A stretch of DNA of 64,000 nucleotides from Enchytraeus crypticus (taxonomy: Eukaryota > Annelida > Clitellata > Enchytraeida > Enchytraeidae). Under the pieces are notes generated by a model, which was not told where the DNA came from, made no database searches, and saw only the letters and a program-made list of their open reading frames with translations. Location: NCBI GenBank assembly GCA_905160935.1, contig CAJHZI010000276.1:430001-494000 (forward strand). Direction: 5' to 3'. The translations under genes were made by a program, and so were the position numbers. Position 1 is the stretch's first letter. Each line of letters opens with the position of its first letter. This document shows positions 2,037-63,969 of this stretch, in pieces.

Positions 2037-2189
2037 ACTTTTATTTCAATTTTGAAATGTAATTTATAAAAAGATTTGTAAACCTTAAAATAATTATATG
2101 TAATTTAAAATCCGATAAAAATAAAAATTTCATTCTAATATTATTGTACTACAGTAAGCTTTTATTAAATTTTATATTAAAGAAATGAC

Positions 2190-7200: not shown

Positions 7201-10200
7201 AACGGTTTGGGCATGGAAGTAAGAATTTATTTATTGAACTAAATTATTTTTACTATAAAACGTTCCCTTTTTACTAGAAAAAAGTCAACTTTTTACTGGA
7301 AAAATATTGATATTTATATTAATATATATAAAAAAGCTAAAGTTAACGTCAATTTCCTATATACAGAAATATACCATTTCCTATACGAGCGGCAATACAT
7401 GCTGAATCACTGCTCAGCTATTCCAGGTCATCAAGCGGCTTAGAAGAATTGCTGAAGCGGACTGTATGAAATATTTGCCAAGTCATGGAAAGCCTTTATC
7501 ATTATTATTACTATTATTATGGTTATCATTATTACAATTTTTATTATTATTATCATTATTATTCCTTTGACTTCCTAACTTACAAAGAATATTAAATAAA
7601 TTAGTACGATAATCAAAGTTACATTTGAAATATGTTATTGTATAAAAGAATATTATATATTAATTGTTGAAAGAATAAAAGAATATTAATTGTTATTGTA
7701 CCAAGAATAATAAAGAAATGAGTACGTTTATCATTGTTATATTTTGAAATGTGTTATTGTATAGGTTTTCGAGCGCAGAGGTCGGTTCTGGAGAGCAAGC
7801 AACCAGTTATGCCATCAGCTGCCACTGTAGATACTTCCAAGAAACAATTTTCGTGTGATACCTGCAACAAGAAGTATGCATCTAAGAAAGGTTTGCGCGT
7901 CCACTGCATTGTTAAGCATAATAAGCTAGTGAAGCATCACAACGTCAGATGTTCTATAGAAACTTGTAACTTCTCTTGTACAAGTATGAACAATCTCAAT
8001 GTTCATCTCAGCTCTAGACACAATATTAATATTACAGCTGAAAGTCTTCAATTCAATTCAATCAGCGAGTTTGATGACTGGAAACAAAAAGTTGAGGATG
8101 AAACACCGTGTAGATTTGTAAGGAGGGGATGTAGAAGCTCTACGGTAGGATCAACTCATTACTATTACTGCAGCAGAAGCGGATTTTATCAGCCTAAAAT
8201 TCAGCGCAAACGGTTTTTGAAATTGCAAGGATCGCGAAAGATTCAGCGAACTTGTCCTGCTCAAATAGTTGTAAGAACTTCTGATTGTAGTGACATTAAA
8301 GTACAAGTGAAATTTGTTAATAATCACTTGTGTCATTCCAGTGCATATGAACAACTGTGCCACATTCCTCTGTCTCGTTCCAACAGAACACAGCTAGCTG
8401 GCAGACTTGTGCAGCAGGTGCCGTTCAACGCAGTACTGCAGGAACTACGTAGCAGTATGGACGGTAGACTGACTCGACTGCACTTGTTGACTAGAAAGGA
8501 TCTGAGAAATGTGATGAAGTCATATCATTTGAACCTCTCAGAGCGATTTCATGATAATGATTATGCCAGTGTTGACGGTATTGTCCAAGGACTCAAGTTA
8601 CAACATAAATCTCCAGTCCTTCTACACAAGCGTCAGGGTGATCAAACCTTCGATATAGGTGATCCCGATATTGATTTGACTGCTTGCGAAAAGGAAGATT
8701 TTTTGTTGGGCCTTATGGATGATGCTCAGTGTAAGATGCTGCAGCAGTTTGGTACAGGAGATATGAGTGTTGCATGTGCAGACTCAACCCATGGCACAAA
8801 TGGGTATGGATTCCTCTTGGCAACTCTCATGGTGTTGGATGAGAACAGAGAAGGCTATCCGGTCGCCTTTCTCTTCACAAATAGAGAGACGGAGGCAGTA
8901 CTGAAGATTTTCTTTAGCTTCGTTAGGCAGAGGTCTGGCATTATAAATGCCAATGCATTCATGAGTGACATGGCCCCTCAGTTTTTTAATGCATGGCAGG
9001 CTGTGATGGGACCATCTGCACGACATCTATACTGTTCCTGGCATGTTGATAAAGCGTTCAGAGAGTGCCTGCATCGTCATATCATGGGACAAGATGAACT
9101 GCACTCAACTCTATATAAGCAGCTTAGGGCACTAATGGAAGAAGGAGATGTGACTACCTTTGAAGCGCAGTTGCCTTGCTTCAAGGCGAACATTAATAAA
9201 ACTCAACACTCCGGAGAATTTGCAGATTTCTTTGCTAAGAATTATGAGAAATCTGCGAATAAGTGGGCTTACTGTTACAGAACAAGTTGTGGTGTAAATA
9301 CCAACACGAGCCTGGAGCGGATGCATGGACGATTAAAGTACGATTATCTGGGTGGTAAAAAAACAAGCGGATGGATCGTGCGGTGAGTCATGTTATCCGT
9401 TTCATGTGTGACAAGCACTTCGAGAAAGTGATTTCTCTAGTGAAGGGAAAATACACTCCAAAACTCTTGGCCCTGCGTAGAAGGCACAAACATAGCCTAG
9501 GAATGAAGGAAACTGTTGCTGAGAGTCAGGTTGGAAGAGAATGGTGTGTGCAGTCAGAGACAAACACTGATGAAATGTATACAGTGATAAGAGTTAAAGA
9601 AAACTGTCTGTGTAACCTGATCTGCACGGAATGTAGGGCATGCATTCACATGTTCAAGTGTACATGCATTGATCAGGCGGTACGCTTCAACATGTGTAAG
9701 CATATTCATCTGGTGTGTAGTCAGTACCCTGTCGTTCATCAGTCTGCAGTAGAGAATAGTGACGATGTGGATGAGAGTCTGGTGATTGCTGAGGAAACGG
9801 AGGAGCAAATACAGCGATCAGATCAACTAACTGCTCACCTTGAACAGCTCGCTCAGCCAACAACTGAAGTGCATAAAGAGCGCAGAACAGCACTACAGAT
9901 GTGTAGTGCGATTGCTGCTCTAGTTGAAGCTACAGGGGATCTTGATCAGTTGAAAACAATCAGTGATACGCTGAAATCTATTCTGCCGAAAGTTGAAGCG
10001 CTGAAAGCCAGTCAGTGTAATGAATTTGTGTGTTTAGAGGGTGCTGAACGGGAACCTTCAAATAAAGGTTTGGTTAAACAGCGAAGGTTTGTGAGCACTC
10101 AAAAGAAAAGAATAACCAAGAAACTATCCTTGTCTAAGCCAACTTCGGATGAGAGGAGATCTTTTCAACTGCAATGGGCTGAAGATGATTTAGTTCGCCA

Positions 10201-10873: not shown

Positions 10874-13800
10874 ATTGAATATTATGCAATAGTTAGCTGG
10901 TCAATTCAAATGTTCGAATATTAATTAAGGTCACGAAAATCAATTATATCTTCACTTGGACTGCTATGTAGTAAATACATCTGCCACTGATATTTGTATT
11001 TGTGCTGGATGTTATACATAACGGCACACTGGGTCAGAAAGCACAGATGCTTGTTTAATGCCCATTTCCTCCTTCCTCTCCATGGTTATTAGTAATCTTT
11101 ACCTTTTATAGCGCATCATTTGCAGCCTGCGAAGATTTAAGAATAACCTTCCATCACTCTGGGATTTTTCCTTCCTAAGCTGTCAGCACTCGGTCTTCCA
11201 AGGTGGTCACACACAAAGCACTAACCGAGGTCGATGTAGCTTAACTTCGATAATTGACGCGCAACTCAACCTATTATATATATATATTGTATGTTTCAGT
11301 TTAGTATTTGTAATATGGACAGCTGTATCTGACATAAATGAGTGATGAATAAATTTCATTTTCATCTTTAGATAAGTAATTTTTAACTTGACAACTTAAC
11401 AAATTGTTAAAAACAACTTCAGATAATTAATTTTGATATATTTACGTCAGTTTCATCTCATGACAGTGACATCAATTACAGGCGAGATTAGGATTTGAAC
11501 CCCGTACATACTGATCCACAGTCTGATATCTTACTGATATCGCCTCGGCTCTGTCGAATAGGCTAGCATTGTCAGTAATAGCTCCTATGTGAGAATTCTT
11601 GATAATTATACGAGGATCTTATACAATCATATTCATGCTCAAGGAGTAATTTTTCGCTATATTAAATATTTCACAATAATTTATTTAATAAATAATAAAT
11701 TTAAAAATTAACACTACATTTAGTATTTAATATTTTATACGTAATATAGCCTACATTCACTGTATTTGGAAGAGATAATTTTTTAAATTCCCGGGTTTTC
11801 CCTTTGACTACTTTCTACAATAAGAGGTAAGTAGGTCGTGTTTAAGGGGAGGAGCTGACCTATAAGTAGCCAATCATATAACGGTCCACGTAATGTCAAC
11901 CGCCGACGCCGATGCCTTGAGGTAATATTATCTGTAGCCGCAAGTCTGATGGCGGCGTCCATAAAAATAAATAAACAAATATTAAAGTAAGAATTTATCA
12001 GCCTATTTTGGCTAGTACTATAGTTTTTTAGTACAATTAGACCATAATGCAATATACTTGTCAAGGAAGACCTGATGGCCCATGTCCTAATATTGGAAGA
12101 GTCAGTTCAACTCTCAACACGCAATACGACTTATATCTATGCCCTGATTGCCTGATTTTTCGTGAGTCGCTAGGAGGCGACAGTGTGGATATCAGCTTGA
12201 TCATTTCTGAGCCTGAAGGCCCGATTAGCTCTGAGCCGGCAGGCCTGTTGTCTGATGCAGTGGAGGCTCTCAACCCGTGTCGCAACGAACTGCTGTGTTT
12301 CGTTTTGGATAAATGCAACGTGGTAGCTGCCGAACAGTTGTCTAAACTATGTTGTGACTGCTATAAGAAGGAAGAAATAGTTGCTGCTAAGTCATTATTG
12401 GATTCAACCCTTGGTTATAAAACTAAGAGTCGTAAGGGTGCTCAGAAATGTCGCGCTACGATGGATGACATCATCAAGTGCTGTCTGAACCCAAGGGTAA
12501 TTCTGCCACAGTTTTATGCTGTGGACTTTTCACGTCTGCCACCTGTGGATGTGAAAAACATTGACATGTCTGCGGTTCTTAAGGAGCTGCAATATCTCCG
12601 TGCTGAAGTGAGGGAGATGCAAACTTTGAAGCACGAATTAGACGTTCTAAAGCAGGAGATGGAGAAATTTCACATATCCAGTCGACCATGTCCCACTGAA
12701 ATGTCTAGTAGGCCTACTCCTACTTCTACGCATCCCTCATCTGCTACTGGATGGGGTGTGAATTTTCCATGTCTTCCCCAGGCTGGCGATTTGCAGCAAC
12801 TCAGACCTCCACTGCCATTACTCAGAGGAGCCTTGTTACCGATGACGAGGCGTCCAACCAGGCTTCTTTCACTCTTGTAGAAGGAAGGAAGAAACATAAG
12901 AATAAAAACAAGCCTAATGTTGGGTCATCCGAAACTCAAAAGAACAATAGAAGATCTGTTGTCGGAATATCTACCTCCAATACTACTGTCAAGGCAGCGG
13001 CAACTACTGTTGACGAGTTGTCGATGTGCGTGAATGAAATTAAGGGTGATGTAAATGTTGTTGATGTCGTTTGTAACAAACTTCAGTCTAAACATGAACA
13101 TCTTTACTCGTCGTATCATGTATCTATTCGTGTGGATATTGCTCACATGAGCAAAGCCATAGAGCTATTCATGTCCAAGGATCCTTGGCCACAAGGGGTA
13201 TTTGTTAAGAGATATTTTAATCCCAGTAATGGAAAATCCCAGTAAGAATATTACACTTTGTACATTCAATTGTAGATCGGTCAAAAGCTCGACAACTGAA
13301 ATTAGTTCCATATGTGATCAATGTGATATATTATTTTTACAAGAACATTGGCTACTTCCTAATGAAATTAATTTTTTATCAAGTCTTCATTATAATTTTT
13401 TAGCAATGGGAAGTTCTGCTGTTGATGTTACATCCGATGTTCTTATTGGTAGGCCATATGGAGGCACTGGTATTCTGTATAATAAGAGGCTTAGTCCTTT
13501 CATCACTCATATTCCTACTAATAATTCTAGATTGTCTGCTTTGATTTTGAGTACTATATTAGGACCAACATTAGCTGCAAACTTTTATATGCCCACTGAT
13601 TACATTGAAGATTATATTGAAGTGTGCTCTTCTATTACAACATTGTACACTGAATGCGATGCAGTTCAACTCATAATTGCTGGTGATTTTAATTGCCAGT
13701 ACGGTTCAAGATGTTTCCCTTTGTTTATTAATCTTGTTACTGAAAATAATTTAGTCCTAACCGATTTAAATAAATTATCTGATGCGTTTATTTACAGTAA

Positions 13801-16800
13801 CATTGATAATAATAGTTTTACATGGATTGATCATGTAGTATGTAGTTCTGCTCTTGATAATATAGTTGAATCTTGTGAAATTAAATATGAATATATTAGC
13901 TCAGACCATAAACCGTTGTTTGTAAGATTTATAGATTTGCTACCAGTTATTCCAACTGGTAGTCACTTTTCTTCATCTATTCCTACTACAGTTCCTAATT
14001 GGTCAGGTGCGGATGATGTATGTATTCGTAAATATCAATCTGTACTATGTGACGAGCTTAGCAAACTTTGTATTCCTAAGTGGTGTTTTGATAAAGGCCT
14101 ATTATCTGTCTCCCCACCTAGGGATGGTGCCAGAGAAGTCAATAGTGATAGAAGCAGTTGTATTGATGCTGTTGATGAGTACTATAAATCAGATATTTCT
14201 TGTATACAGTATGCATGTAACGCTTGTATCCCAATGAAAACTATTGCAAGTAAAGACTATGTTGTGCCAGGTTGGAATGATTATGTTAGAGAATCCCATG
14301 TTCATGCAAGAGCAACTTTCTTAGATTGGATAAATGCAGGAAGGCCTCGAAGTGGCGTATTATTTGAGTCCATGAAGAAATCTAGGGCTCAATTTAAGCT
14401 GGCATTGCGATATTGTAAGAAGCATGAGGCCACTCTGAGAGCAGATGCTCAGGCTAATTCTCTGTCTAAGAACGATTACAGTGGTTTTTGGAAGCAATTA
14501 TCCAAGGTCAGCAACAGTAATGTCAGTAAGCATACTAATGTAATTGACGGTTGTTTCGGTGATGACGCCATTGTGGAGCGTCGGCGTACTCATTTTGAGC
14601 ATCTTTATAATGATTGCGCCGTAGGAATCAATGAATATAATGCTGATAAAAATGCATTTTTGGATCGCCTTAACTCCTAAGAATGATTTTGTCATTTCTG
14701 TTAGTAACATTATAGATATGTGTAGATTGCAAAAGCATGGGAAATCTCCTGGACCAGATGGCATTTCCATGGAGGCCATTTCATTCGCGTGTCCTAGTCT
14801 CTACGTTCATTTAAACATGTTGTATAATTTGTTTCTACAACATAGTCATTTGCCTAATTCATTTATGCAATCTGTAATTATACCTCTAGTTAAGAATAAA
14901 TCTGGCGATTTATCTGACCTTAATAATTACAGAGCAATTGCAATTTCTAATGTATTATCTAAATTGTTTGAATCCCTCATTGCGCAATCTATACATAGCC
15001 TTTCTGATTATGATAATTTTCAGTTTGGGTTTAAGTCTGGCCATTCAACCGGATTATGTACTCATGTACTAAAGCAGACTATCGAGTATTATAGACATCA
15101 TGGAAGTCATGTTTTTACCTGTTTTGTTGATTTCAGTAAAGCTTTCGATAAAGTTAATTACTGGAAATTGTTTGGAAAATTACTAGACGATAACATTAAC
15201 ATCAGTATTATATTTATTCTTGCATTCTGGTATTCTAAACAGCAATGCTTTGTTCGATGGCGTAATTCTGTTTCTACTTGTTTTCACATTGGAAATGGTA
15301 CACGTCAGGGAAATGTACTTTCACCGTATTTTTTCTCTAGATATATACGCGATATGGTTAGAGCTGTAGTAGATACAGGGATTGGTTGTACAATTAATAA
15401 TAGATTAATTAACATTCTTGCATATGCTGATGATATCGTTCTTATTGCTCCTTCGTGGAGAGCTTTACAGTATTTAATTGATGTGCTTCAGTTTAACGCT
15501 AAAGTTATTAACATGTCTTTTAATATTAGTAAAACTGTCGCCATGATATTTGCTCCTACGGATCGAAATTGGAGTGTATTGGAGGAATTTCCAAGATTTA
15601 AGTTGGATAATTCTTTCATTAATTATGTAACGCAGTTTAAATATTTAGGTCATATTATAACCAATGATGGTCGTGATAATAACGATATACAGCGTGAAAT
15701 ACGTGGTATGTTTATGCGTACGAATATATTAAAGCGTAGATTTGCTTATTGCTCTCTTAATGTTAAGAAGGTCCTGTTCAAATCCTATTGTATGTGCTTC
15801 TATGATGTGGCACTATGGTCGTCGTTTACAATAGGTTCAATAGAGAAGTTTCGATCTTGCTATAATAAATGTATTAAAATATTTTTTGGATACAAACGTT
15901 ACAGCAGCCTAACCATCGCGCTGCTAGAAACTGGATTGCCTAGTTTTGATACTATCCTTTCAAATTACAGATTAAAGTTTAGAATGTGCTTGCTGGATAA
16001 TGCTAATATGCTAGTTAAGTGTTTTGACGTTCTGAGCCTATTATAGCCTTGTATGCCTAATTCTATAAGTAATTGTTTTAGGCCTATAGCGCAATTTATG
16101 AGGAGACTATTTGCTTTTCTGGTTTTTGTTGCATTGTTCTATGTGTAAGATTCATGTATGGGTTTTTACGCCTGAAATAAAGCAATAAATAAATAAATAA
16201 ATAAAAAGAAATAGGAAAACTTACCTTAAGAAATTCATCAGCAATTTTTTCAGTATCAGACTGAGAGTAATGTCTGCGCAGAAGAGCAACCAATCTCTGA
16301 CGCAGATGAGACTTGGAGTTGTTGGGCGGAGCAGATGTGTCGCTTGCTTGTGCTTCACTCGCTATCGTTTCTCTAAGAGACAGAATGACTTTACTTCCAT
16401 TCGTTAATCCGCATTGCTTCAGGGTCATATGATCTGCAAGGTTACACACAATACAGATAGACTTGTAAAACTAACAAAAAAAAGTTTAAAATGCCAATCG
16501 ATATCAAATCTGCAGAAGACATAAGTCAATTATATAATTATATCATGCATACTAAATAACCAACTTAATGATGTGGGCAGCACTAATTTTAGAGACCGGT
16601 TCAAATTGTGCTCATTATCACTTCACTTCAGCCAAACACTTAATGTATCTTATTAAAATGTTATACAGATATTTTCAGTTCGTATTGTGCATTGCAGAAG
16701 TTGATGAAGTTCAAATTTGAATTTATATAGAATATCATATACCTTTTTTGTAAATATTTTAGTTGATAAGTTTCAAAGATGGTATCTGCATGCATTTGCT

Positions 16801-19800: not shown

Positions 19801-22800
19801 TGGAATGGTAAGTGGAACAATAAGTGACATTATAAAACTTAATAAAATTTAGAGTTATAGTTGTTTATAAAACTAATCAATTTTGGCATGTTAAAAGGGC
19901 TTGACCTCTTGAGATTAAAATAAATTCATATTTCAATAAATAGCGAAAAAATTATATTATACAGCTCCAGAAACAGTTAACAACATGTTGAAAGACAACT
20001 GGGAAAATGGCAAGAAAATTCTTAAAGAATTAGTAAAGACAGCTCGGAAAGTTGTAATCTGTTTAGATTCCTGGTCCAAAAAGAGCCTTTCCAGTTGCTT
20101 TTTAGGAATCTCAGCCTGCTTCAATGATCCTAATGCAGAAATTAGTCGTCATGTCACCCTTGATTTGAAACAGCTGCAACACCCTCACACCGGGCAAAAT
20201 ATAGCTGATGCGTTGACTGCAACTCTGATAGACTGGGATATACCAGTTGAAAAAATTGCATTGCTTATCACAGATAATGGAGCGAATATGGTGAAGGCTA
20301 TAAGATTACTTGGGGAGCCATCTCAACTCCTGGAAGATAAGGCAGAAAGCGATGCAGAATCAGAAGATGAAGAGGAGGGAGAGTCAGATACAGATATTGA
20401 TTTACCAACAGAAGTTCCATATAGACGTATGCAGTGCTTGGCCCATACACTGCAACTGATGGTTAAAAAGCCTACTCACATTATCAATCAGTTACTTTGA
20501 AAGCCAAAGCCATAGTGTCAAGAATTAGAAAGTCTTCTATTGCAGTGCAAATGCTTATTGATAAAGCTGGGAAGTCGCTCATCACAGATAATTCTACTCG
20601 GTGGAACAGCACGTTTTATATGGTGAAGCGATTGATTGAGATCAAACCCGCGGTCAATGAAGTTCTCGACGTTATTAAAGTGGATACGTTGATGGTCAGT
20701 GAATGGGGTCAACTAGAGATTCTGATGAACCTGCCAGAACCATTTGCACAGCAAACTAATATCCTACAAAGTGACACTATGTCCATGTCAGCAGTTATAC
20801 CCTTTCTGTTAGACTTGCAGTGTCATCTACAGCAGTTTTCTTATGCAAAAACATTGGCCACTGCAATGCTTACAGATATGCATAGAAGATTTGAAGATGT
20901 TTTGAATCCATCGTTTCCACGATTCAATCCAATACCTGCTGCAGTTTGCTTAGTGGATCCTAATCTTGCGCCAATTCTTTTTACACCTGATGCAAGACAA
21001 CTAGTTGAACCAGGAAGGACATATCTCTTGCGAGAGGTAAGCTTAAGTTTATTAGATACTACTTCTGGACTGCTTTCGTAGCATTAACATAAAATATTTG
21101 TAACCACAGCCTCTTTATGTTTTTTGTTCTTTTTGTATTTCTTGTTGCATATTTTATGTTGGGATATGGCAACATAGAGCTACTGATCCTTTAATATTTG
21201 TGTTTTATTCCTGCAGATGAGCAACAGTTGTTCTAAAGGCAGGCACGACTCTGCTAGTAACGAAACACCTGCAGTCGTCATTAACCTTCCTCCATCACTG
21301 CAGCGCTTCAAATTTATTGCTAGCAGAATTACCTGTCCTAGCTCAACATTTCCTGCAGAGTACATCGAAGTTAGTCGTCAAATTGACGACCACATAAAGA
21401 CTATTGAGAGCGTTTCAACCGGTAATGGGGTTAGCAGATCAGGTCTGGACTTCTGGAGGGAACGAGTTCCAGTGTATGATAAACTGGCACCTATTGCTAT
21501 AGACCTTCTGGCAGCTCCAGCTTCCCAGGCGTATGTTGAAAGAATATTTTCAGTATGCGGCATTCTCACATCTGGGAGAAGAAATCGCATGAACTCATCT
21601 CTTGCAATGAGAGCCAGTCTGAAACTGAATCATAATGTGTTAGAGTCACTTAGAAATTGACTGGTCTGTAAAGTTATAAATATAATTGTAATTACAGTTA
21701 CATTATACAACTATTTAGTCGTATCAATGTATTAAGATATATGTGTATTGTACTAATTATTACGCTTGCTCATGACATTGACAGACAGGATAGAGTGATT
21801 AATGGCTTAGGCCTAAACTTGTATAATTGTACTATTGGTTACACATGTATGTATCAAGCTATTGATTCGTAAGTAAAAGTCTAAGTAAGTCAAATTATTA
21901 TTTTTTAAGTAAAAGTCTAAGTAAAAGTAAAATTATCTTCAAAAGCATAAGTAAAAGTAAGTCAAAATATTTGTTGGTGAGTAAAAGTAAAAGTTAAAAT
22001 ATTTCTTTAAGTCAAATAGGACAGAGCCTCTGTCCTAGACATTAGCAATATCGATGCGGTGAGTTCAGTACCATCTTTTAAAATCATACACTGCATACTT
22101 TATTTCCATTGCATTGCCACATAACAGGTTCAACATAACTAACAACAGTGTATTGCCTTAATCGCTTCAAGACCTTTTGTATAATTAAGCTCAAATTCAG
22201 AAACAGTTGAACTCTGTAATTCCAGAGTGACAGGAAAAACAGATCTGTAATTGGAGTTGGATAGAACTGGAAAATAGACCTGGAGATTGCGTGGGATAGA
22301 ACTGGCATGTAGACTGGTAGATCAAGTTTGATAGAACTAGAATGTTGACCTAATGGTCAAGAGTTTGACAGAAATGGATTATAGATGAGATGGGCATAAT
22401 TGCAATAGAGCACATGAATAAGGGACCCAAAATTCACTAGCCTAGTAAAGTTGAGTTTAATACCTGATTCGTTACTACAAGGGTACTTGTTAGACGCGGT
22501 CCAGCTGTGATGCAAACTAGTTGCCTACTAAATTGATCAGACTAGTGTGTTTCTAACTTTGTCGTCCATCCAGTAACAATTGTAGAAAATATATTTTAAA
22601 TGGCAAGGAATAGAATGTCCCTTAGACAAAAAACAAAATGTCAATACAAATATGGATAAGTTGGTAGCACATAAGTATGGCGCGGAGTACAGGATTAAAA
22701 TCCAGAGCTCGTCCCATAACTGATATGCTTTCCTGACAGGAAACTGACGTTAAACTAGGCTGTAATAGGTAATGGTTTCCTTTCTTCTGGCTATGCTTGT

Positions 22801-38300: not shown

Positions 38301-40322
38301 TGCACGGTATATCAAATTAATTGTACACATACTATTTAAATTAATAATTATAAATCATGATCTATTATAAATAATTAATAAATTATAAATAAAACTAGTA
38401 ATGATTTATTTTAATTAAAATCAAACTTTGGTGTGGTCTAAAGTAATTTACCTTATTCACTAACAGTTTCTGTTTCTTTCAACATCAATGAATCTCTTAA
38501 CTATAAATTTTTTGTGCAAAGTTTTGACTTTTATATTATTTGGCATTTATATAAATCTCATCAAAGAAAATTTTGTGAGTGCACCATAAATATATGTTTA
38601 TAGAAGCTATGTCACTACAAGTTATTTGTTTCCTATGCATTTTAGTGTACTACATGTATATTCTACATCTTCTTCTCTAAGTGCCGTGCCTGTTCCAAGC
38701 CTGGTCAGTCATGGTCATATTTCTCCATATGTCTCTGTTCATTGTACTACACTAGTTATTTTTAAATATCGTGCAATTTTTTTCAGATACTATGCGACGC
38801 AGAAGAAGACTCTAGAAGTGAATCCTCGTCACCCGCTGGTGAAGGAGCTGAGACGGAGAGTGGAGACAGCTAAGGAAGATCAGACAACCAAAGATCTTGC
38901 TGTAGTTTTGTTTGAGACAGCCACGCTCAGGTCTGGATACTTCCTGCCTGACACGGCCGAATTCGCAGGTCGTGTAGAGCGTATGCTGCGTCTAAGCATG
39001 GACGTCTCTCTGGACGAAAAGGTAAAGTTGATAGTGACTGCCTCTATCACTCTACTGAAATTCAATTAGGTTAATGAAAATTATTCTGTGCTACTAAAAT
39101 TAAACTGGGGATTGATATTGTTGTTGCGTTACTGTCAGCTGTGACTGGAATTAGTAACGTACATTGGAGATGACATGATGTTAAAAATTACTAATAGTAT
39201 ACAATTGTGACCTTAAGTATTATATTGTTACTATGCAGTGTAGTACTACTGTTGTTGTCAGATGATGAACAGTAAAGCCACGTTGTATTGCATGCCGTAT
39301 TGTTTGATGTGCTGAGTAGGTAGATGAAGAACCAGAGGAAGAGGAAGAGGAAGCGAGTGAGGAAAGTAAGGAGGAGGAAGAGGAGGAGGAAGATGAGGAA
39401 GAATCCTCATCAGAGACGAAAAAGCAATCTGATGATGGCTCCGATCATAAGGTAACTTCTGCCTTGTACTATTTATTTGAAAGTGTTTAAACTACCTTGT
39501 GCAAAATTGATTTCTTATATGAATTTCCATTACTTTACATTGTAAAGCATTTACAATTCTTACTAGTTCATGGAATGAGGTGTCTCTTGTATTTTGCTAT
39601 TGATGATGTAATATACTGTATCTTCTTCCATTGCGCTGCTTAATGGCCGGTACATAGTGTATAACACTTCCAATTACTTCTATCCTCAGCCTTCCTTTTC
39701 ATCTCTTTGTATGAATTTGTTGTCATCCAACATCCAATGTCTTGATCTGCCTCTGACGCATTTCCCTTGCATTTAACATTAGCGCATTCGAGCCAGTGGC
39801 GATATCGATAAGATATTCGATCGCGGATCAGTATGTGTGGGGTTCAAATCCTGGACTCGCCCGTCACTGACATCGGTTTCGAGTGAGGAAACTGACGTTA
39901 ACATTAACTTTTTACATTTGTCTATTACATCCTTCAGCAAACCATCCCCTTTATAATGTGTCCTATTCATATTTTCTGTAATAATATACTATTTTTATAT
40001 ATCAGATAAATTAAAATATAATGTAGTGCTATCTTAACCCCTATTTTTTATTTATTTTTATGTATTTTATGTATTTTGTATTATTATATATTTTATTATT
40101 TATTTATTATTTATTATTTAGTATATTTTGTATTTTGTATTTTTTATGTATTTTATGCATTTTGAGTTGTGCCACCCCTCCAACATACTGTATGTGATAT
40201 CTGTCCCTCAGGAAGAGGAATTACCAGCATTTGTATCCACTGCTTTAATGTATTATTGGATAGTGATTATGTTTTATTGTGTTATATTGCAGGATCATCC
40301 ACCACATGGAGGTGAGCTGTGA
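28493..40322 (+). CDS. HSP90B1: Endoplasmin (HSP90B1/GRP94), complete, 15 coding exons, 810 aa
   Basis: ER-lumenal HSP90 chaperone for secreted and membrane proteins. Exons: 28493-28553, 29119-29230, 29384-29642, 30152-30350, 30823-30952, 31924-32035, 33021-33199, 33692-33959, 35064-35224, 35731-35950, 36623-36820, 37799-37935, 38787-39021, 39320-39451, 40293-40322. They sum to 2433 nt with every phase matching and GT-AG borders. Human is 803 aa. The N-terminus is a signal peptide ([13 protein letters not shown], cleavage likely after ARA). The ATPase domain has [24 protein letters not shown] and [11 protein letters not shown]. Exon 7 is the acidic charged linker. The middle domain has [15 protein letters not shown] and [13 protein letters not shown]. 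The C-terminal domain has [18 protein letters not shown] and ends in an acidic tail. The last four residues are GGEL, not the KDEL/HDEL expected for ER retrieval. Confidence 0.96.
29304..29350. repeat. (AT)n microsatellite in HSP90B1 intron 2
   Basis: Uninterrupted AT dinucleotides, about 35-80 bases before exon 3. Confidence 0.9.
31570..31710 (+). repeat. Eroded family A tRNA-SINE in HSP90B1 intron 5
   Basis: GATCCAGTGGCATATCGGTAA at the head and AGGAAACTGACCATTAAAC in the tail follow the family; the B box is lost. Confidence 0.5.
32583..32640 (-). repeat. Family A SINE tail fragment
   Basis: GCTGGTAAAGCTAATTAATG followed by CAATTTCCTCACTTGAAAGC is the reverse complement of the family tail. 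Lies in HSP90B1 intron 6. Confidence 0.55.
34725..34920 (-). repeat. Eroded family B tRNA-SINE in HSP90B1 intron 8
   Basis: Contains ACATTATAGTGAAATAATC, CCATTTTACCAGACC, GTGAATGTCCAATATTTTAC and a diverged acceptor end, in the order of the minus-strand family B copies at 26430-26668 and 53748-53945. Confidence 0.55.
37941..38098. repeat. Tandem duplication, two copies of about 79 bp, at the start of HSP90B1 intron 12
   Basis: Copies begin at about 37941 and 38021 and share GTTATCACTTA, ATGGTCAAAATTTGG and TTGGTTTATTTTATCTGCGCC. The first starts within 5 bp of the exon 12 donor. Confidence 0.8.
39781..39920 (+). repeat. tRNA-derived SINE, family A, in HSP90B1 intron 14
   Basis: GAGCCAGTGGCGATATCG at the head, TGTGGGGTTCAAATCCTGG (B box), CGCCCGTCACTGACATCGG, GAGTGAGGAAACTGACGTTA. 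Confidence 0.8.
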
Positions 40323-45437: not shown

Positions 45438-45989
45438 TTATCTCTTCCTGGTCACCATCGTACCCTTTATTTGATCTGTTAGCCATCCAATTCCCTCATC
45501 CAAACCTTCCCCTGTTATCCCATTGGTCCCACAGATATGCCAGGGCTTACTGTTGACCTTCGACAGCTCTAGGATGGCACTGCACTTGCTGCTTGACACT
45601 GCTTCTCTCACGTCCATCTTGTTGGCCAGCAGCAGCAGCGGTACTCGCCTGTCTCGAATGTCGGCATGTGTCAGCAGCTGATCCAGCTCGTCCTTAGCGA
45701 CGGCAAGCCTCAGCTGATCAGAGCTGTCGATGACAAATATCACTCCATGACAGTCGCGATAGTAGTGTTCCCATAGGTTCCTGTACCGACCCTGACCAGA
45801 CATATCAAACGCTGTCATATTTAGAGATCTTGCTTTGAACTTTTCAACTGTGAATCCAATCGTTGGCACTATATCGGCTTGCTGTGTTTCAGATGGTTTC
45901 AGTTTATTGATTATTGTTGTCTTACCGCTGTTGTCCAAACCAACTACAATTACATTGGCGACACTACTTTTACCTGCCGAGGAGCCCAT
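45438..45989 (-). CDS. ARL6: ADP-ribosylation factor-like 6 (ARL6/BBS3), intronless, 183 aa
   Basis: Small GTPase that recruits the BBSome coat for membrane-protein traffic to cilia. G1 is GLDNSGKTT (residues about 17-25), switch I has [11 protein letters not shown]3 is [16 protein letters not shown] (an ARL6 hallmark; most ARFs have DVGGQ), G4 is NKMD and the G5 region is PWHICGTNG. Length is close to human (186). The start at 45989 gives Gly at position 2 (MGSSAGKSS), a possible myristoylation site. The stretch before G1 is about seven residues shorter than in vertebrates and lacks the amphipathic Leu-rich helix. Vertebrate ARL6 is split by several introns; this frame has none and no breaks. 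It could be a functional retrogene, or the lineage may have lost introns. I saw no adjacent poly(A) tract or target duplication. Confidence 0.93.
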
Positions 45990-47198
45990 TTTTGTATTTT
46001 CTGTCTAACTAAATGTTTAAAGAGATGAATGACTGCAGAAATGATTAGAAATCCTCAGAGTGAATCCTGTGTGTGAAATATTAAAGAATTGATAAAAGAT
46101 TATTGCAGGTGTAAATGTAGTCCACTGGTTAGATATTTTGATCTGATTCAAGTTTAGTAAACTAAAATTGTGAATGAAAGTTTTCTGATTTAAACATACA
46201 CAAAGATCATAGCTTATCTATAGTATTTAGTCAATATTATATTAGAATAAAAAAATTTATGTACACTTCATGTCTTTTATAACTAACGCCCCATATGCTA
46301 TTACAATGTCTCGTTATGCCTATAACAAGTTGACGGATGCTTTTGAACTTCACAGGACTTGACCAGCAGTCAATATCTGCTCTCGATTGAATGCGACTAT
46401 TTATATTATTAATAAGATCTTCGAGATATAGTTATTAAAGCATTTGTTTTATAACCACAATTCTCCAGCAAAGCTTTTTAAGACAATTGGGATCATTTCT
46501 GACATCGCTTGGTAGTCTTCTGCAAACTACTTGTACATTTCTGTATATATTTCCCCATACTTCCTTGTTGAGTGCTTCTTCATCGAACATTTTTAAAACA
46601 TGTTATTCCATCGTAACTACACAGTGGCCCATAAAAAATTAGACAAGTCTTAAATGCTAATATCTCCATCTTGATGAAAGTAAATTGAACCACATTATAG
46701 ATTTTATTAAATATGTATATGGAATAGAAAATTTGTTGATGATATCTACAATGGTTGTTAAGCTATAGTGTTTATGTTGTATGTACCCAACTTCAGGCGC
46801 TCTTAACATGGCAGCGTTATTATTAATATATTATTATTATATTATTATTATTATATATTATTATTATTATATATTATTATTATTATATATTATTATTATT
46901 ATATATTATTAACGTCATTATTGGCTTTCTAACATAACCACAGATATTCTGTGCATGACGCGCTTTAGGCCTACGCTTTAATTTTTCAATTCTATGACTT
47001 TACGTACTGCTGACATGTCAAGAATGCCTGAATTTGGGTATTTACACCCGAAACGCTATAACTTCGCAACTGTTGCAAATATCATCACCAAATTTTCCCA
47101 ATTTCTATTTAAAATATGTATTTAATTAAATGCTAACTTCAGATAAAAATTTGCCTTTTTCATGCCGGAGATAGATATTATTGTTCAAACTTATATAT
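45990..47198. other. Upstream of ARL6; AT-rich, with microsatellite
   Basis: Should contain the ARL6 promoter (minus strand); none defined. A (TATTA/ATT)n run occupies 46815-46913. A stretch starting CAGTGGCCCATAAAAAATTA (46622) resembles the end of a DNA transposon, but I found no partner end. Confidence 0.4.
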
Positions 47199-54974: not shown

Positions 54975-55738
54975 AACTTAACCACACAATAACGATAGAG
55001 AGTGATAACATAACAACAATTAGAGTACTACAGTCATCAATGAATACATCGAGCACTATTGAGACAAAATCAAGACGGCTAGCAAAAAGAAGTTCCAAAA
55101 ACCGCGCAAATTCCAAAATCCAGAAAATCCGTCCAAAGATAAGGCAATTAAAGAAAAGAAGGTTTAGGCACTGGTCGCAACTCATGGACACCAGACGGAA
55201 AAGAGAGATGGAAAAGATAGGTCTGCAACTGTCTATCTAGAACTGCTCACAGGAAAGCAAAGGCCGATGTGATTCAAACGAAGATTTCCTACGATTGGAT
55301 GGTAGAGAATTCCAGATCTGCGGAGCAGCATGCTGGAAAGAACGATTAGATAGCTTAGAGCGCGAAGGTAAGCTAGGTCTCACAAGAGAAATTAATTTAG
55401 AAGACCGAATAACAGCAGGCTGCATCAATTAAATCAAGTGAGACATACAAGTTTGTCCAGGGATGGTGATGGACTTATAGGTTAACGAAGCTGCTTTGTA
55501 AATGATACGCTCTTTAATCTTTAGCCAGTGCAAAGACTTTAATATGGGCATAATATGTGAGCACTTGGAACTACAAAAAATTGCTCGCGCAAGAGAATTC
55601 TGAATAAACTTTTCAATCGATCAATCTCACAGCCAGAGAGATTTAAAAACAGGGAATTGCAGTAGTCCAATTTCGATTGCACAATGGCAGCATTAATTGT
55701 AGCAGCTGTCTCACGTGACAAATATGGAAGTAAGTACT
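54975..55738 (-). pseudogene. CR1-type LINE, 3' part of reverse transcriptase plus 3' UTR, cut by the PolB element
   Basis: Minus strand: LKYLLPYLSRETAATINAA, SKLDYCNSLFLNLSG, then in another frame RSFQHAAPQIWNSLPSN, the usual C-terminal order of CR1/Jockey-group ORF2. The 3' UTR (about 55150-54995) is the unit scattered elsewhere in the window. Coding homology stops at the outer end of the 8.2 kb palindromic element, showing that the LINE was there first. Confidence 0.8.
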
Positions 55739-58140
55739 TTAGTAACCCCAATACTGGAACAAGCCCAGCTACGGTTTAGCCTATTAGCGTATAGCCTAGC
55801 AGCTGCTAGCAGCAGCTGCTGCGGCGGTGGCGCGTTGCTGCTGCGGGTCGTCGCGTTGTTGCGAGCGCGTTGCTGTAAGCGGCGGCGCTGCTGTGGGGGA
55901 GGATGACGCGGTGAGGGGTGATGACGCACTACCGGGCGGCTCTGCAGCGGCTTGTCTAGACAAGTCTGCGATCACAACGGTTCCACTTGATGAAAAACAG
56001 ATGTGACGTGAAGCAACCTTGACGCGGTTAGAGAATGTTCTAGAGTTTCAAAACAAACATATTACGTAGTTGCACACGTATAGTCAAGTCTGCAATTATA
56101 CATTGTGGTGAAACCGTTCATTCTTAATTAGCTGTCCTATTTATTGCGCAGCGTTTAGAAATGTGCAATAGATACGTACGCTGTCTGTATGCACCGCATC
56201 TGTTGTTATGATGTATGCAAATTGTAAAGACTTTTTCAGTTAGATGTCTCTAAGTGTTAACATGAAGTGTTTATAAACAGTAAGCACTTTTCCAACAAGG
56301 CATCTTTATCAACTTTAAATTTACCAAGACGTATTTCTATCAACATTAACTTTACCAAGCCATGTTTTTATCAACTTTAACATTAGCAAGTTATGTTTAT
56401 TTTATAAAATTTATTATCACGAAGACATGCTTTTATCATCTTTAAATACACCAAGGCATCTTTTTACCAACTTTAACTTTAACAAGTTACGCTTTTATCA
56501 ATTTTAAATTTATCAAATCTTATTTTTATCAAATTTAAATTTAGCAAGTTAATTTGCTACCAAATTTAAATTTATCATGTCATCTTTTTATTAACTTTAA
56601 CTAGAGCAAGTTAAGTTTTTATCAATTTGAAATTTATCAGATGACCTGCGCAATAATAGCTGCGTTGTGCAGCCTAAAAGCTAGTGATGACGCACTATCA
56701 GATGACCCAAGCAACCTAAGGAGGGACACACTGATCTATACTGCGCAATAACAGCTGCTGCATGCGGCTGTGGGCAGCGGCGGGCAGCGACGCGCTTCTG
56801 CGGTAGACAGCTTCTGCGGCGGCGAGCTTCTGAGGCGGCGCGCTGCTGCGCACAGCCTAGAATGATGACTCATTCTCACGCGCACAATTGTTATTTTAAC
56901 CTAGTAAGCTTGACGTAAACATGATGACTTATTCGCACGCGCACAATTGTTATTTTAACCTAGTAAGCTGGGCGTAAACATGATACCTAAATCTCACGCT
57001 CAGAATTGTTATTTTGACCTACTAAGCTCGACGTAAACACGATGACTCTTTCAAGTCATATTTTTTATCAACCTTAACTTTAACAAGTGAAGTTTTTGTC
57101 AATTTTAAATTTATCAGGTCATCTTTTTTATCATCTTTAACTTTAAGTAGTTAAGTTTTTATCATCATTAACTTTACCAAGGTGTGTTTAAACCAAATTT
57201 ATTATAATGAAGGTGTGTTTTTATCAACTGTAACTTTAGCAAGTCATGTTTTTATCAAATTTAACTTTATTAAGGTGTGATTTTATCAACTTTAATTTTT
57301 AGCAAGTAAAGTTTTTATCAAGTGTAGCTTTACCAAATCATTTTTCTATCAATTTTAATTTTAAAAAGTTATGTTTTTATCAATTTTATTATTTTGGGGA
57401 TGTGATTCTATCAACATTAACTATACAAAGTCATGTCTTTATCAACTTTAACTTTACTAAGGCGTGTTTTTATCATCCGTAAATTTATCAAGGTGTGTTT
57501 TTATCAACTTTAATTTACCAAGTTATCTTTTTCATGAACTTTAACTTTACCCAGTCATCTTTTTATCAACCTTAACTTTAACAAGTTAAATTTATATCAA
57601 TTTGAAATTTATCAGATCATCTTTTTTATCATCATTAACTTTATCAAGATGTGTTTTAAATAAAATTTATTATAATGAAGGTGTGTTTTTATCAACTGTA
57701 ACTTTAGCAAGTCATGTTTCATCAAGTTTAACTTTATTAAGGTGTGATTTTATCAACTTTAATTTTAGCAAGTTAAGTTTTTATCAAGTGTAGCTTTACC
57801 AAGTCATATTTCTATCAACTTTAATTTTAACAAGATTTTTTTCAAATTTATTATCATGATGGACTGTTTTTATCAATTTTAAATTTAGCAAGTTAAGTTT
57901 TTGTCAAGCGTAACTTTATCAAGCCATATTTTTTATCAACTTTAACATTAACAAGTTATGTTTTTATAAAATTTATTATCATGAAGGTGTGTTTTTATCA
58001 ATTTTAAATTTTGCAAGTTAAGTTTTTATCCACTATAATTTTATCAAGTCATCTTTTTATCAACTTTAACTTTAACAAGTTATGTTTTTTTTCTAAAATT
58101 TATTATTTTGAAGGTGTGCTTCTATCAACATTAACTTAGT
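55738..58140 (+). repeat. Left inverted arm of the PolB element
   Basis: Outer GC-rich block with CAGCTGCTAGCAGCAGCTGC-type palindromes (55795-55975), then linker (to about 56290). About 31 bp units built on TTTTTATCAACTTTAACTTTA occupy 56290-56640 and 57045-58140 (about 45 units). A GC-rich block (56640-56865) and three copies of an about 55 bp unit with CTCACGCGCACAATTGTTAT (56870-57045) sit between the two runs. Confidence 0.85.
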
Positions 58141-58142
58141 AT

Positions 58143-61098
58143 TTGAATTCCAGCCGTCCATACCATTATTACCCACATCTAGAAAAATTTAATACCACCG
58201 GCATCCAGTACCCTGTCCATATCGACAAAATCTCCAAATTCGAAAAACAAAATCCTGATATAAGCATAGATGTCCTTAGTTATATCGAAATTGACGAAGA
58301 AATATATGGCCCAACACTGGTACCAATATACATGTCCAAAGACCAAGTTTGTCCACACCTTGTCAACCTTCTTCTTATAGCCGGTGCAGACAAACCAGGC
58401 AACCAAATAAGACATTATGCTTTAATAAAAAATTTACGTAGGCTACTTTTCGATGCCAGAAATCACCAGCATAATATCTTTCCCTGTAGATATTGCCTCC
58501 ACCGCTTTTCTTCCGAAAAACTCCAAATCGATCATCAACGAGACTGCGGGAGGAAACCTGCACTAGCTATTAGCTTTCTTCTCAACAAGTTACAGTCAGA
58601 GGCTAGAGATAAAGAATTAGAACATTTTTATGCTAGTCTAGATAGTCTTGCTGATAGGTTGCATGAGCTAGAAGGTTCCGAACGTCGTCTCGTTGAGGAT
58701 ATGATTAAACAGTCCACGGATCTAGACCCGCCCAACATATTGAAATTAAAAAATATCCACAAGCAATTCAAAGTCCCTTTTGTCCTTTATTGCGATTTTG
58801 AATCATTCATTTCCGAAAACGACGAAATACATACACCCAGCGGCTTTTTGCATCTTACGTGTATGTTGCTACAAAAATGTAGCATGTAAAATAGCATACA
58901 CGTGCAGCGGTGCAAACGTGATGGAAAAGTTTTACGCCAAGCTGCATGAGATCGATGAAGAAGTTTATGATTTACTAAAAGAAGTTGTCCCCATGAAAAG
59001 AACGAGCAAAGATGCACTTCGACAGTATCGTAACTCTGTCTGCACCTTCTGTAGAAAACCATTTGTACGGAAGGTCAGGCATCACGATCACGTTACTGGC
59101 GATTTCATCGCAGCTTGTTGCAACAGCTGCAATCTAAAACTAGAACCCCGCAAATTTAATTCGAGGGGTTGGGACAAGAAAAAGAAGAATACAAAGAATG
59201 AAATATAAGTTGAGGGAATACCTGGGGAAGGATGCTATGTAGATGGGAATGCGGACGAAGAGGACGAGGAGACGAGATACTTTATCCCGGTCATATTTCA
59301 CAATTCAAAAAATTACGACACCCACCACTTTTTGAAATTTTTACAAACGGATTCGTTAGCCGAAATGGATAAAATTCGTGTAATAGCTAACATTTCCGAA
59401 AAATTTATTTCCGTCCAAATAGGGAATCTAAGAATCTTAGATTCCTGCCAATTCCTCCCCGGTTCTCTAGATTCGCTGGTTGAAAGCCACAAGAAAGATG
59501 ACGAGTCCAAATTAGTCCACACTCGTCGTCATTTTCCAGACCCTGTCAAAAGATCTTGAGGAAGGGAGTTTATCTCTACGAGTACATGAGCTCTAGGGAT
59601 AAATTTGACGAAAAACAACTTCCCCCAATCCAAATTTTTTACAGTAAACTCACCGAATCGGAATGTTCGAAAGAAGATTACGAGCATGCTCAGTTGGTTT
59701 GGAGATCGTTCGATGTGCAGGATATGCGAGGGTATCATGACCTCTACCTGCTCAAGGACGTTCTTTTGCTCGCTGACGTGTTCGAAAACTTTCGAAAATT
59801 TTCGATGAAAAATTACTCTCTCGACGCTGCACATTACTACACCAGCCCTGGTCTCTCATTTGATGCACTCTCAAAGATGACCGAGGCAAAGCTCGAACTC
59901 TTGACAGAGTCCGATCATCTCCTCTTTTTTGAGTCTGCTCTTCGCGGCGGCGTATCGATGATCACTCATCGGTATGTCGAAGCAAATAATCCTCATCTAC
60001 ATAGCTACGACCCCAAGGTAGCCCATTCGTACATCCAATATTATGACGCGCATAATCTGTACGGGTGGGTCATGTCCCAACCCCTCCCCACTGAAAATTT
60101 CAAATTTTTAACTAGGGAAGAAATTGGGTCCATCGATTTCATGCAGATCCCGGAAGATGCAGATACCGGTTTCATGCTGGAGGTAGATTTTGAATACCCC
60201 GACGAGCTACACGAGCATCACAACGACCTGCCCCTAGCCCCTAAAAGAATTTCCATCCCCGAATCCTACCTCTCCCCTTATCAGCAGGAACTTTTGCAAA
60301 CATTGGGGGGAAAACAAGATTCAAAAATTGAAAAGTCGGTGCCAAATTTCTTGCCAAAGTCCCGATACGTACTACACTACAGAAATTTTCAGTACTATTT
60401 GCAGAAGGGTATGATCTGCAAACATATACATCGTGTAATGAGTTTCACACAAATGGCATGGATCGAACCCTACATACGTTTCAACACCATTCAACGTCAA
60501 AAAGCAAAATCCCCATCAGAAAAGAACTTTTTTAAATTTCTAAACAATGCAATATTCGGCAAAACAATCCAAAATTTGAGAAAACAGACAGACATAAAAT
60601 TGAGCGCATCGGACAAACAGGCAAGGAATTTGGTAGCCAAACCTAATTATCAATCCTTTCACAAAATTAATGAAACTCTTGTAGCCGTCCAGATGAATCA
60701 GGTACACGTCTTCTGGTGCTTGTATTCTCGATTTGTCAAAATTACACCTTTTTAAATTCCATTACGATGTGATAAAGACGAGGTACGGTAACAAAGCACA
60801 GCTGTTGTTCACCGACACCGACTCGCTCTATTATCACATCGTAACGGACCACTTGTACAAAGACATGTTAGAGTTTGTTGACCACATGGACACATTCAAC
60901 TTCCCTCCCTGCAACGCATGTTTTAGTAAAGTCAGCGACAGAAAATTGGGATTTTTCAAAGACGAGTGCGAAGGGCTGCAACCACTCGCGTTTGTAGGAC
61001 TGAGGGCAAAAATGTATAGTCTCCAACTCCCCAAGGGTAATAAGTCCACTGCGAAAGGGATTCAGTACGTGTGTACGATTGTGTACGTAAAGAACTAA
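58143..61098 (+). pseudogene. Protein-primed family B DNA polymerase with endonuclease VII-like HNH insert, decayed
   Basis: Family B polymerases of this type copy linear DNA from a terminal protein. In order: C2H2-type CRYCLHRFSSEKLQIDH (58485-58537); Exo I YCDFES (58789-58806); HNH/endonuclease VII motif CTFC...HHDHVTGDF...CCNSCN (about 59041-59135); Exo II FHNSKNYD (about 59296-59319); Exo III YLLKDVLLLADVFENFR (about 59743-59793); Pol A YYDAHNLYGW (about 60040-60069); Pol B NNAIFGKT (60543-60566); Pol C TDTDSL (60811-60828); then VGLRAKMYSLQL and a shortened C-terminus. Breaks: frameshift about 58850-58920, stop at 59206-59208, frameshifts near 59550 and 60715. All catalytic motifs survive in the pieces. 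The architecture is that of the PolB widely found in invertebrate genomes and linked to Polintons. Confidence 0.9.
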
Positions 61099-61469
61099 AT
61101 GTAAATAAAGAGTTGTAGAGTCATAAAGACTCATGTAATAAAAATGAGTTGTTTCTATAAAAATTCAAACCACAAAGAATTTACTATTATGCTATATATA
61201 GTAAGACAAGATTTCAAAGCTAATTCTTCACTCGTTACTAACTCATCCTCTACAAAGCATTTTATCAACACACATGTATTAACAACGATCGTTTCATGGA
61301 ATGTTTACTCGTTGTAAGTCAATTAGATAGTTTGGAAAAAGGCACCATGCACTCACAACAGATGATCCTGTGCATGATATAAATTGAAATGACAAATCAG
61401 CACTTACAAAGTGCATCAATATTAAAATGTTCAGACACAATCGAAGTATGAAATTGACACACAGATGTC
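61099..61469. other. Spacer between the polymerase relic and the right arm
   Basis: No coding sequence seen. An AATAAA at 61137-61142 region (ATGTAATAAAAATGAG) could serve as polyadenylation signal for the polymerase gene. Confidence 0.4.
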
Positions 61470-63969
61470 TTGATGAAGTTGTGGTTGATAAAAATATGAC
61501 TTGTTAAAGTTCAAATAATCAAAACATGCCTTAAAAATATCGAAAGTTAATAAAACACGCCGCGATAAAGTTAAAAATGATAAAAGCATAAAACGTGAAG
61601 TTATATTTTTGATAAAAAGATGACTTTAAAAAATAAAAGGTGTGTCACGATAAAGTTAAAGTTGATAAAAACACACCTTGATAAAATTACAATTGATAAA
61701 AAAACACAACTTCATAATAAACATTTTATAAAAACATAACTTGTTAAAGTTAAAGTTGATGAAAACATGACTTGGTAGAGTTACAGTTGATAAAAACACA
61801 CCTTCATTATAATACATTTGGTTTAAAACACACCTAGATAATGTTAATCATGATAAAAACTTAACTTGTTAAAGTTAAAGTTGATAAAAAAAGATGACCT
61901 GATAAATTTAAAATTGATAAAGACTTCACTTGTTAAAGTTAAGGTTGATAAAAAGACGACTGGATAAAGTAAAAGTTGTTAAAAAAGATAACTTGGTAAA
62001 TTTAAAGTTGATAAAATCACACCCTGATATATATATATATACGGTTGATAAAAACACGCCTTGATAAAGTTAAAGTTGATAAAGACATGACTTGGTAAAG
62101 TTAATCTTGATAGAAACACACCTTCAAAATAATAAAATTGATATAAAATACATCTTGATAAAGTTAATGTTGATAAAAGTACACCTCATAATAATAAATT
62201 TTATGAAAACATAACTTGATAAATTTAAAATTGATAAAAACTTAACTTATTAAAGTAAAAGTTGATAAAAGGATGCCTTGATACATTTAATATTGATAAA
62301 AAAACATGCCTTGTTAAATTTAAAATTGATAAAAACATAACTTGTTAAAGTTAAAGTTGATAAAAATATGCCTTGATAAAGACATGTTACAAATGATAAA
62401 GACACATCTTCATACTAATAAATTTTATAAAAACTTAACTTGTTAAAGTTGATAACAAGGGCGAATTGATAAAATTAAAGTTGATGTAAAAATAAGCTTT
62501 GATAAAGTTAATGTTGATGTAACACACTTTGATACAGTTAATGTTAATAAAAATATGCTTTGAATTTAGTAGGTCAAAATAATAGTTGTGCGCGTGAGAA
62601 TGAGTCATCATGTTTACGTCGAGCTTAGTAGGTTAAAATAACAATTGTGAGCGTGAGAATGAGTCATCATTTTTACGTCGAGCTTAGGAGGTCAAAATAA
62701 CAATTGTGAGCGTGAGAATGAGTCATCATGTTCACGTCGAGCTAAGGAGGTCAAAGTAACAAATATGGGCGTGATTATGAGTCATCATGTCTAGGCTGAG
62801 CGCAGCAGCACGCCGTCTCAGAAGCTCGCCGCCGCAGAAGCTGTCTTCCGCAGAAGCTCGCCGCTGCCCACCGCTGTCTGTAGTGGCACGCAGCAGCCGT
62901 TATTGCGCAGTATAGGTCAGTGTGTCCCTCCTTAGGTTGCTTGGGTCATCTGATAGTGCGTCATCACTAGCTTTTAGGCTGCACAACGCAGCTATTATTG
63001 CGCAGGTCATCTGATAAATTTCAAATTGATAAAAACTTAACTTGTTATAGTTAAAGTTAATAATAAGATGACATGATAAATTTTAATGTGATAAAAATAA
63101 GATTTGATAAATTTAAAATTGATAGAAGCTTAACTTGATAAAGTTGATAAAAAGATGCCTTGGTATATTTAAAGTTGATAAAAGCATGTCTTCATGATAA
63201 TAAATTTTATAAAAAACATAATCTGTTATGCATCAATATTAATAATGAATTATTAATAAATAATTAATAATAAATCAATATTAATAGTAATGTTAAAGTT
63301 GATAAAAACATGACTTCGTAAAGTTAATGTTGATAGAAACACGCCTTGGTAAATTTAAAGTTGATAAAATGCCTTGTCGGAAAAGTGCTTACTGTTTATA
63401 AACACTTAATGTTAACACTTAGAGACATCTAACTGAAAAAGTGTTTACAATTTCCATACATCAGAACAGCAGTTGGGGTGCATACAGACAGCGTACGTAT
63501 CTATTGCATATTTCTAAACGCTGCGCAATAGGTAGGACAGCTAATTAAGAATCAACGGCTTCGCCACAATGTGTAATTGCAGACTTGACTATACGTGTTC
63601 GACTACGTAATAAGTTTGTTTTGAAATTCTAGAACATTCCCTAACCGCGTCAAGGTGGCTTCACGTCATATCTGTTTTCATCAAGTGGAACCGTTGTGAT
63701 CGCTGACTTGTCTAGACAAGCTGCTGCGGAGCCGCCCGGTAGTGCGTCATCACCCCTCACCGCGTCATCCTCCCCCACAGCAGCGCCGCCGCTTACAGCA
63801 ACGCGCTCGCAACAACGCGACGACCCGCAGCAGCAACGCGCCACCGCAACAGCTGCTAGCAGCTTGCTAGGCTATAGGCTAGCAGCTGCTAGGCTATAGG
63901 CTAGCAGATGCTAGCCTATAGGCTAATAGGCTAAACCGTAGCTGGGCTATTCCAGTATTGGGGTTACTA
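61470..63969 (-). repeat. Right inverted arm of the PolB element
   Basis: Mirror of the left arm. About 31 bp units (AAAGTTAAAGTTGATAAAAA) run 61470-62560 and 63010-63390. The about 55 bp unit (GAGCGTGAGAATGAGTCATC) occurs four times in 62570-62790. The GC-rich block is 62795-63010, the linker 63390-63690, and the outer GC-rich end 63690-63969 with extra GGCTAGCAGCTGCTAGGCTA copies. Arm-to-arm identity looks higher in the GC blocks than in the AT-rich tandem part. Confidence 0.85.

Follow-up and report, generated by a model that had tools for sequence, protein, structure and literature searches.

A probable trimmed Polinton with foldback-like arms in the genome of Enchytraeus crypticus

Terminal inverted repeats (TIRs) around PolB are the layout of protein-primed linear plasmids. 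For Galileo, growth of the TIRs has been proposed to occur via inner DNA copied between the ends (scheme TIR1-F1-F1-TIR2), and inverted-repeat expansion has already been reported for Polintons (PMC3573991, in part). A VSR-like endonuclease insertion is described in PolB of group I Mavericks (PMC10328495, in part). At title and abstract level, with subscription papers mostly outside the scope, no foldback-like or non-autonomous Polinton/Maverick derivative was found in the literature. The element described here lies in a 64,000-nucleotide stretch of Enchytraeus crypticus DNA (contig CAJHZI010000276.1, positions 430,001 to 494,000), which is called the window. The element has a size of 8,228 bp (55741-63968). 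It is very probably a dead, internally deleted Polinton/Maverick derivative of foldback type with a Polinton as its partner, the shortened form having spread with enzymes supplied in trans, its right end having been copied over its left end and the copy having decayed without selection.

Arms and coding content of the window copy

The element reads 5'-AGTAACCCC...GGGGTTACT-3', and its TIRs end in 5'-AG...CT-3' as those of Polintons do. The left arm, an expanded TIR on the plus strand, covers 2,399 bp (55741-58139). The right arm, on the minus strand and delimited by inverted-repeat and arm alignments, covers 2,891 bp including an inner non-array stretch (61078-63968). The tip AGTAACCCCAATACTGG is present on both arms. 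A repeat search found inverted pairs (I1-I4) that are 85-97% complementary over 55814-57052 and 62598-63857. The best arm-to-arm score was 1862 bits compared to a maximum of 31.9 bits among 20 letter-shuffled controls. In one arm alignment the outer 1 kb of the arms was 92-99% identical in 11 of 11 alignment windows, the 59-bp arrays of the two arms were 84-87% identical and a collinear inner stretch (57407-57765 against 62114-61715) was 87-90% identical.

Tandem Repeats Finder (TRF) predicted a 31-bp array in the outer left arm (56305-56639), a 59-bp array of 3.2 copies (56862-57047) and a 31-bp array of about 33 copies in the inner left arm (57052-58089), all on the plus strand. The right arm contained a 31-bp array of about 23 copies (61649-62381) and a 59-bp array of 3.8 copies (62566-62790), both on the minus strand. 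Aligned inversely to each other, the inner left array and the right array are in part collinear. The right-arm arrays start approximately 375-585 bp past the final PolB base, at 61440 by the repeat search and at 61649 by TRF. Long TIRs with internal tandem repeats are the structural mark of foldback elements. The inverted pairs, the 1862-bit match and the TRF arrays confirmed the mirrored, internally repetitive arms with AG...CT ends of the original prediction, with the coordinates refined as given above.

Mis-joined reads can in general make mirrored arms, and an assembly-made palindrome had been raised as a concern. The Kimura distance between the outer arms is 6.1% (958 sites) with indels present, making an assembly-made fold unlikely. 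The flanks on the two sides of the element are unlike, and the same arms and junction occur at other loci. The palindrome was ruled out by the arm divergence of about 6% and is considered exceedingly improbable.

A PolB remnant region (58140-61065, plus strand) was identified by homology and by Pfam on frame pieces. The PolB homology that had been predicted was upheld while the single gene was not, as tblastn with an intact relative as query recovered residues 142-1117 of 1197 in four frame pieces. The left array passes directly into PolB at approximately residue 142. The Pfam scan within the element covered the PolB frame pieces. In these DNA_pol_B_2 was sub-threshold (E=4e-4), and an endonuclease VII-like domain (PF02945) inside the remnant (59002-59139, plus strand) was above the cut-off (E=2e-5). 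The 417-amino acid PolB piece had 4,405 protein matches in the database with a top identity of 52%. Many of the named ones among the 120 listed matches were from marine animals and a number carried PF03175 or PF02945. The window copy thus encodes a Polinton-type protein-primed PolB as a frame-broken remnant. None of the other 11 proteins of a full Polinton relative matched in the window (tblastn, E<=1e-3). This includes the integrase, ATPase, protease, capsid candidate and PC4, which were searched with the proteins of relative L036, and it agrees with the predicted absence of other Polinton genes.

Full-length relatives, shared junction and dispersed arms

Genome-wide searches scored the best 100 of 775 candidates for PolB, 40 of 196 for the arm end, 40 of 70 for the PolB 3' piece and junction, 94 of 442 for the capsid candidate and 113 of 911 for the integrase, and the counts below refer to these. 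Of 108 capsid rows 72 entered the counts; where a place gave two pieces, the second was omitted.

The closest intact PolBs sit in the same 524-Mb animal genome. Stop-free PolB frames of 1197-1199 amino acids were present at eight places and were 80-81% identical to the window piece. A complete-looking Polinton of approximately 14.5 kb was found at C377 (L039-L036-L040). It encodes an A32-like ATPase and an rve/chromodomain integrase (Pfam), and PC4 is present. A 155-amino acid open reading frame (ORF) is a C5-like protease candidate (Peptidase_C5, E=0.0047) and a 448-amino acid ORF is a jelly-roll-like capsid candidate (DJR-like domain, E=0.015), both below the Pfam cut-off. The capsid candidate had no match in PHROGs or PDB sequence searches. 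PolB was assigned by homology, as the Pfam DNA_pol_B_2 cut-off was not reached in L036. The C377 relative ends in AGTAGTATAATAAGG (AG...CT) and has CAGCTA on both flanks, a 6-bp target duplication. It combines the PolB, ATPase, rve integrase, AG...CT TIRs and 6-bp target duplication of a Polinton.

The ATPase region was located directly 3' of PolB in 11 of the 14 PolB relatives read (L022-L035), while L031 and L034 kept other downstream pieces behind PolB instead. The nearest PolB among the loci compared was that of C284, with 92.6% nucleotide identity to the window. It runs on into the ATPase gene. Apart from a 106-amino acid ORF, every protein of the C377 Polinton has a match in C284 (11 of 12). 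A capsid-candidate match was present 2-6.5 kb downstream in 16 of the 30 PolB 3' pieces outside the window. A further four pieces had the junction described below and no capsid match, and ten had neither. All five top-scoring pieces without the junction (93-97% identical) had a capsid match; a piece at C238, 94% identical, had neither. One pattern match to a relative was seen in viral contigs and none was confirmed. The original prediction offered a distinct minimal lineage or a trimmed Polinton. The existence of full-length relatives with ATPase, integrase and a below-cut-off capsid candidate counts against the former, and the trimmed Polinton therefore stands.

At the position of the ATPase gene of C284 and L036 the window copy has a junction segment (61078-61440, plus strand) in which the PolB 3' flank is joined to arm DNA. 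This segment is common to six loci: the window, C746, C765, C419, C330 and C293, the other five being 85-92% identical to the window. None of the capsid rows used was within 20 kb of the six loci, and none of the integrase matches listed was within 300 kb of them. A PolB 3' piece precedes the junction segment by 634-706 bp in C419, C765, C330 and C293 and abuts it in the window, so the window copy has lost approximately 600 bp more. The scar of this deletion, which removed the PolB C-terminus and following DNA, lies at 61065-61078 (plus strand) by comparison with C419 and C284. Both still contain the deleted DNA, and the spacing indicates its presence in C765, C330 and C293. No PolB 3' piece was among the matches listed near the junction segment of C746. 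In C765 about 7.6 kb separate the junction segment from the right arm.

The PolB of C419 is 89.7% identical to that of the window. Past PolB both share approximately 250-300 bp of other DNA, followed by arrays. C419 keeps its PolB DNA through the PolB end together with a relative of a small upstream ORF. Its TIRs are 1.1 kb long and 98.5% alike (distance 1.7%; 18 substitutions and three gaps). They hold only a short outer 31-bp array; a 59-bp array and a long inner array of 31-bp units were observed on the right side alone. At another locus, C236 (21511-21779), the DNA directly after a PolB 3' piece matches the inner junction segment at 70% (E=2e-7). This is a possible seventh, older copy of the junction.

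With a 571-bp arm end as query 79 genome matches were obtained. The arms occupy at least about 40 places; 41 rows including the two of the window were used, with tips and small pieces excluded. Nine inverted arm pairs including the window were found, with 0.85, 2.2, 4.2, 4.6, 6.1, 6.9, 8.2, 10.4 and 13.0 kb between the outer matches. Among the matches listed no capsid row was inside any of the nine. Scattered copies with a variable or absent core are typical of foldback elements. The genome-wide arm and PolB queries proposed in the original prediction recovered other copies and the shared junction, but PolB was among the matches listed in only two of the nine pairs (the window and C419). Most arm elements were therefore seen without PolB. 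At C202 (369722-370576) two arm ends are inverted within 0.85 kb as a near-coreless foldback.

Six loci with the same junction and a dispersed arm family with nine inverted pairs argue for mobility of the trimmed form itself. What spread was a non-autonomous, foldback-like lineage of Polintons, probably by means of enzymes from full Polintons.

Origin, decay and alternative explanations

A full Polinton would have lost its genes from the ATPase to the right end, leaving PolB beside a repeat-rich arm with tandem units of 31 and 59 bp. Several loci would then have received the shortened form, full Polintons presumably supplying the enzymes for transposition in trans. In the window lineage the right end may have been copied inverted over the left end, which would have replaced the PolB N-terminus and given two mirrored 2.4-kb arms. 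Copying of right over left is the simplest reading because the C419 arrays are on the right only while those of the window are on both sides, inverse and partly collinear. The window copy would afterwards have decayed with no selection. The element would behave as a foldback-type non-autonomous transposon, as Galileo and Tetris do, with a Polinton as the autonomous partner.

Changes private to the window PolB were even by codon position (22/39/35, p=0.58) and those private to C284 were nearly even (22/27/34, p=0.17). The PolB distance was 6.6% between the window and C284, compared to 9.2% between the window and C419, and the former is close to the arm-to-arm distance of the window. Even codon positions and similar distances are expected if the window copy decayed in place.

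A different history is that of a distinct minimal lineage, a PolB-bearing Polinton satellite which lost capsid, ATPase and integrase, still replicated itself with a functional PolB and had to borrow nothing but integration. The six junction loci, with the PolB 3' piece adjoining in the window and shortly before in four others, are consistent with it, as is the retention in C419 of PolB through its end and of the upstream small-ORF relative. Changes private to the C419 PolB were also third-position enriched (48/34/68, p=0.0018), a first hint of selection on PolB after the deletion. This hint was weakened by the non-coding control. Between the window and C419, K was 0.066-0.083 in the junction segment, 0.092 in PolB and 0.14-0.16 in the TIRs. 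PolB was thus not slower than the adjoining non-coding junction, though slower than the TIRs, and post-deletion selection is therefore unproven. Compared to an intact relative, and with end effects excluded, PolB has three internal frame-shifting indels in the window, besides its missing ends, and ten in C419. As the TIRs of C419 are little diverged, these ten frame shifts hint that its PolB may have been broken already at insertion, unless the TIRs were homogenised later. The seven arm pairs with no PolB match listed also argue against the minimal lineage, which is considered improbable. What remains of this proposal is the set of junction loci and dispersed arms; self-copying by its own PolB was unsupported, the PolBs of the window and C419, the two junction copies compared at base level, being broken. 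A related scheme, in which one deletion left PolB and foldback arms, the satellite replicated itself from the arms, full Polintons supplied only integration and arm-only foldbacks were seeded, is likewise rated unlikely. A self-standing PolB plasmid was rejected, the layout being its sole support.

The window copy could also be a chimera, in which ectopic recombination joined the ends of two arm-family insertions around a PolB fragment. The check for target duplications gave a mixed outcome. No duplication was found at the window copy, where one of six flanking bases matches between the sides, compared to five of six at C419 (ATAGGA and ATAGGC). Chimeric copies of Galileo likewise lack matching flanks (PMC3573991, in part). 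For the left arm, identity reaches 96% with arms elsewhere, compared to 94.3% with the right arm of the copy itself across the same 470 bases. This difference is not significant (p=0.11; 19 compared to 31 differences, hand-entered) and is weaker with the measured 26 mismatches and one gap. Both window tips carry the same end sequence, unlike C419 and C284, which argues against a chimera. This explanation is regarded as possible but doubtful.

Several observations weigh against the favoured reading of a dead, internally deleted Polinton derivative, beginning with the missing target duplication. Much of the inner arrays is not collinear, the parts outside the collinear stretch aligning poorly from arm to arm (42-86%). 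Genome-wide absences are soft because the searches score best candidates; the left tip of C284, seen on direct comparison, was missing from the arm-end matches listed. Within 12 kb downstream, the only side covered, the rows used showed no window-type inverted arm at any of the 16 PolB loci with a capsid match, and an autonomous parent carrying these arms was therefore not found. The ends of C284 are unlike, the left being window-type and the right L036-type, and C284 may therefore be chimeric and represent the parent poorly. As a clean parent it was weakened by these ends and by its third-position divergence from L036 (27-36% outside PolB compared to 34-49% within PolB). Quartet counting grouped the window PolB with C284 at 26 sites and with C419 at 14, and 16 sites gave the third grouping; by chi-square this is not significant (p=0.11). 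In the left TIR of the window copy a stretch of 54 bp is also nearer to C284 than to C419. A window PolB nearer to C284 sits badly with a junction common to C419, unless recombination occurred. The mixed ends of C284 make recombination between elements likely, and simple trees may mislead.

Neighbouring features and comparison with known systems

Other features were predicted elsewhere in the window. A tandem array of 185-bp units (6.6 copies, 91% matches, TRF) is located at 2189-3420 and a MULE-type transposase frame (PF10551, E=4.5e-12) at 7722-9386. Non-LTR retrotransposon-like frames with endonuclease (PF03372) and reverse transcriptase (PF00078) are present at 13163-16046, and a hAT-like transposase end (PF05699, E=1.5e-7) at 21187-21660. 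Host genes include an HSP90-family exon (38590-39069) and an intronless-looking ARL6 frame (45438-46004; best database match 80%), the latter in keeping with an animal genome. Other loci of the genome (L011-L020) contain other Polinton families in many copies, with open PolB frames of approximately 1350 and 1420 amino acids. In L014 ATPase, phospholipase A2-like and integrase frames lie beside PolB, the Polinton-linked phospholipase A2-like ORF being at 8381-8944 (PF08398, E=4.4e-10).

The window copy resembles the C377 Polinton in its homologous PolB and AG...CT ends, and a sister copy (L037) has a short related 31-bp array in or beside its left TIR in opposite orientation. The endonuclease VII-like domain that is clear in the window is merely hinted at in L036 (E=0.09). 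Unlike the C377 Polinton, the window copy measures 8.2 kb, has expanded arms, lacks a target duplication and has no match to the integrase, ATPase, protease, capsid candidate or PC4. It differs from protein-primed linear plasmids in being chromosomal, in its broken PolB and in having Polintons as the nearest relatives found. Such copies would be classed as foldbacks or satellites if their arms alone were seen. Several loci with one deletion junction in common allow a test of whether PolB by itself can sustain a Polinton derivative.

Tetris of Drosophila virilis is likewise a non-autonomous foldback with tandem repeats within its TIRs; its repeats are approximately 220 bp, and the abstract of PMC4079207 makes no mention of a PolB remnant. 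Galileo of Drosophila shares long repetitive TIRs, deletion derivatives, two-TIR copies and chimeras without target duplication (PMC3573991, in part). The Galileo transposase belongs to the P superfamily, whereas the coding remnant of the window copy is a Polinton PolB. The comparison suggests that Polintons would follow the path of Galileo, with deletion derivatives whose TIRs expand with tandem repeats and which multiply as foldbacks.

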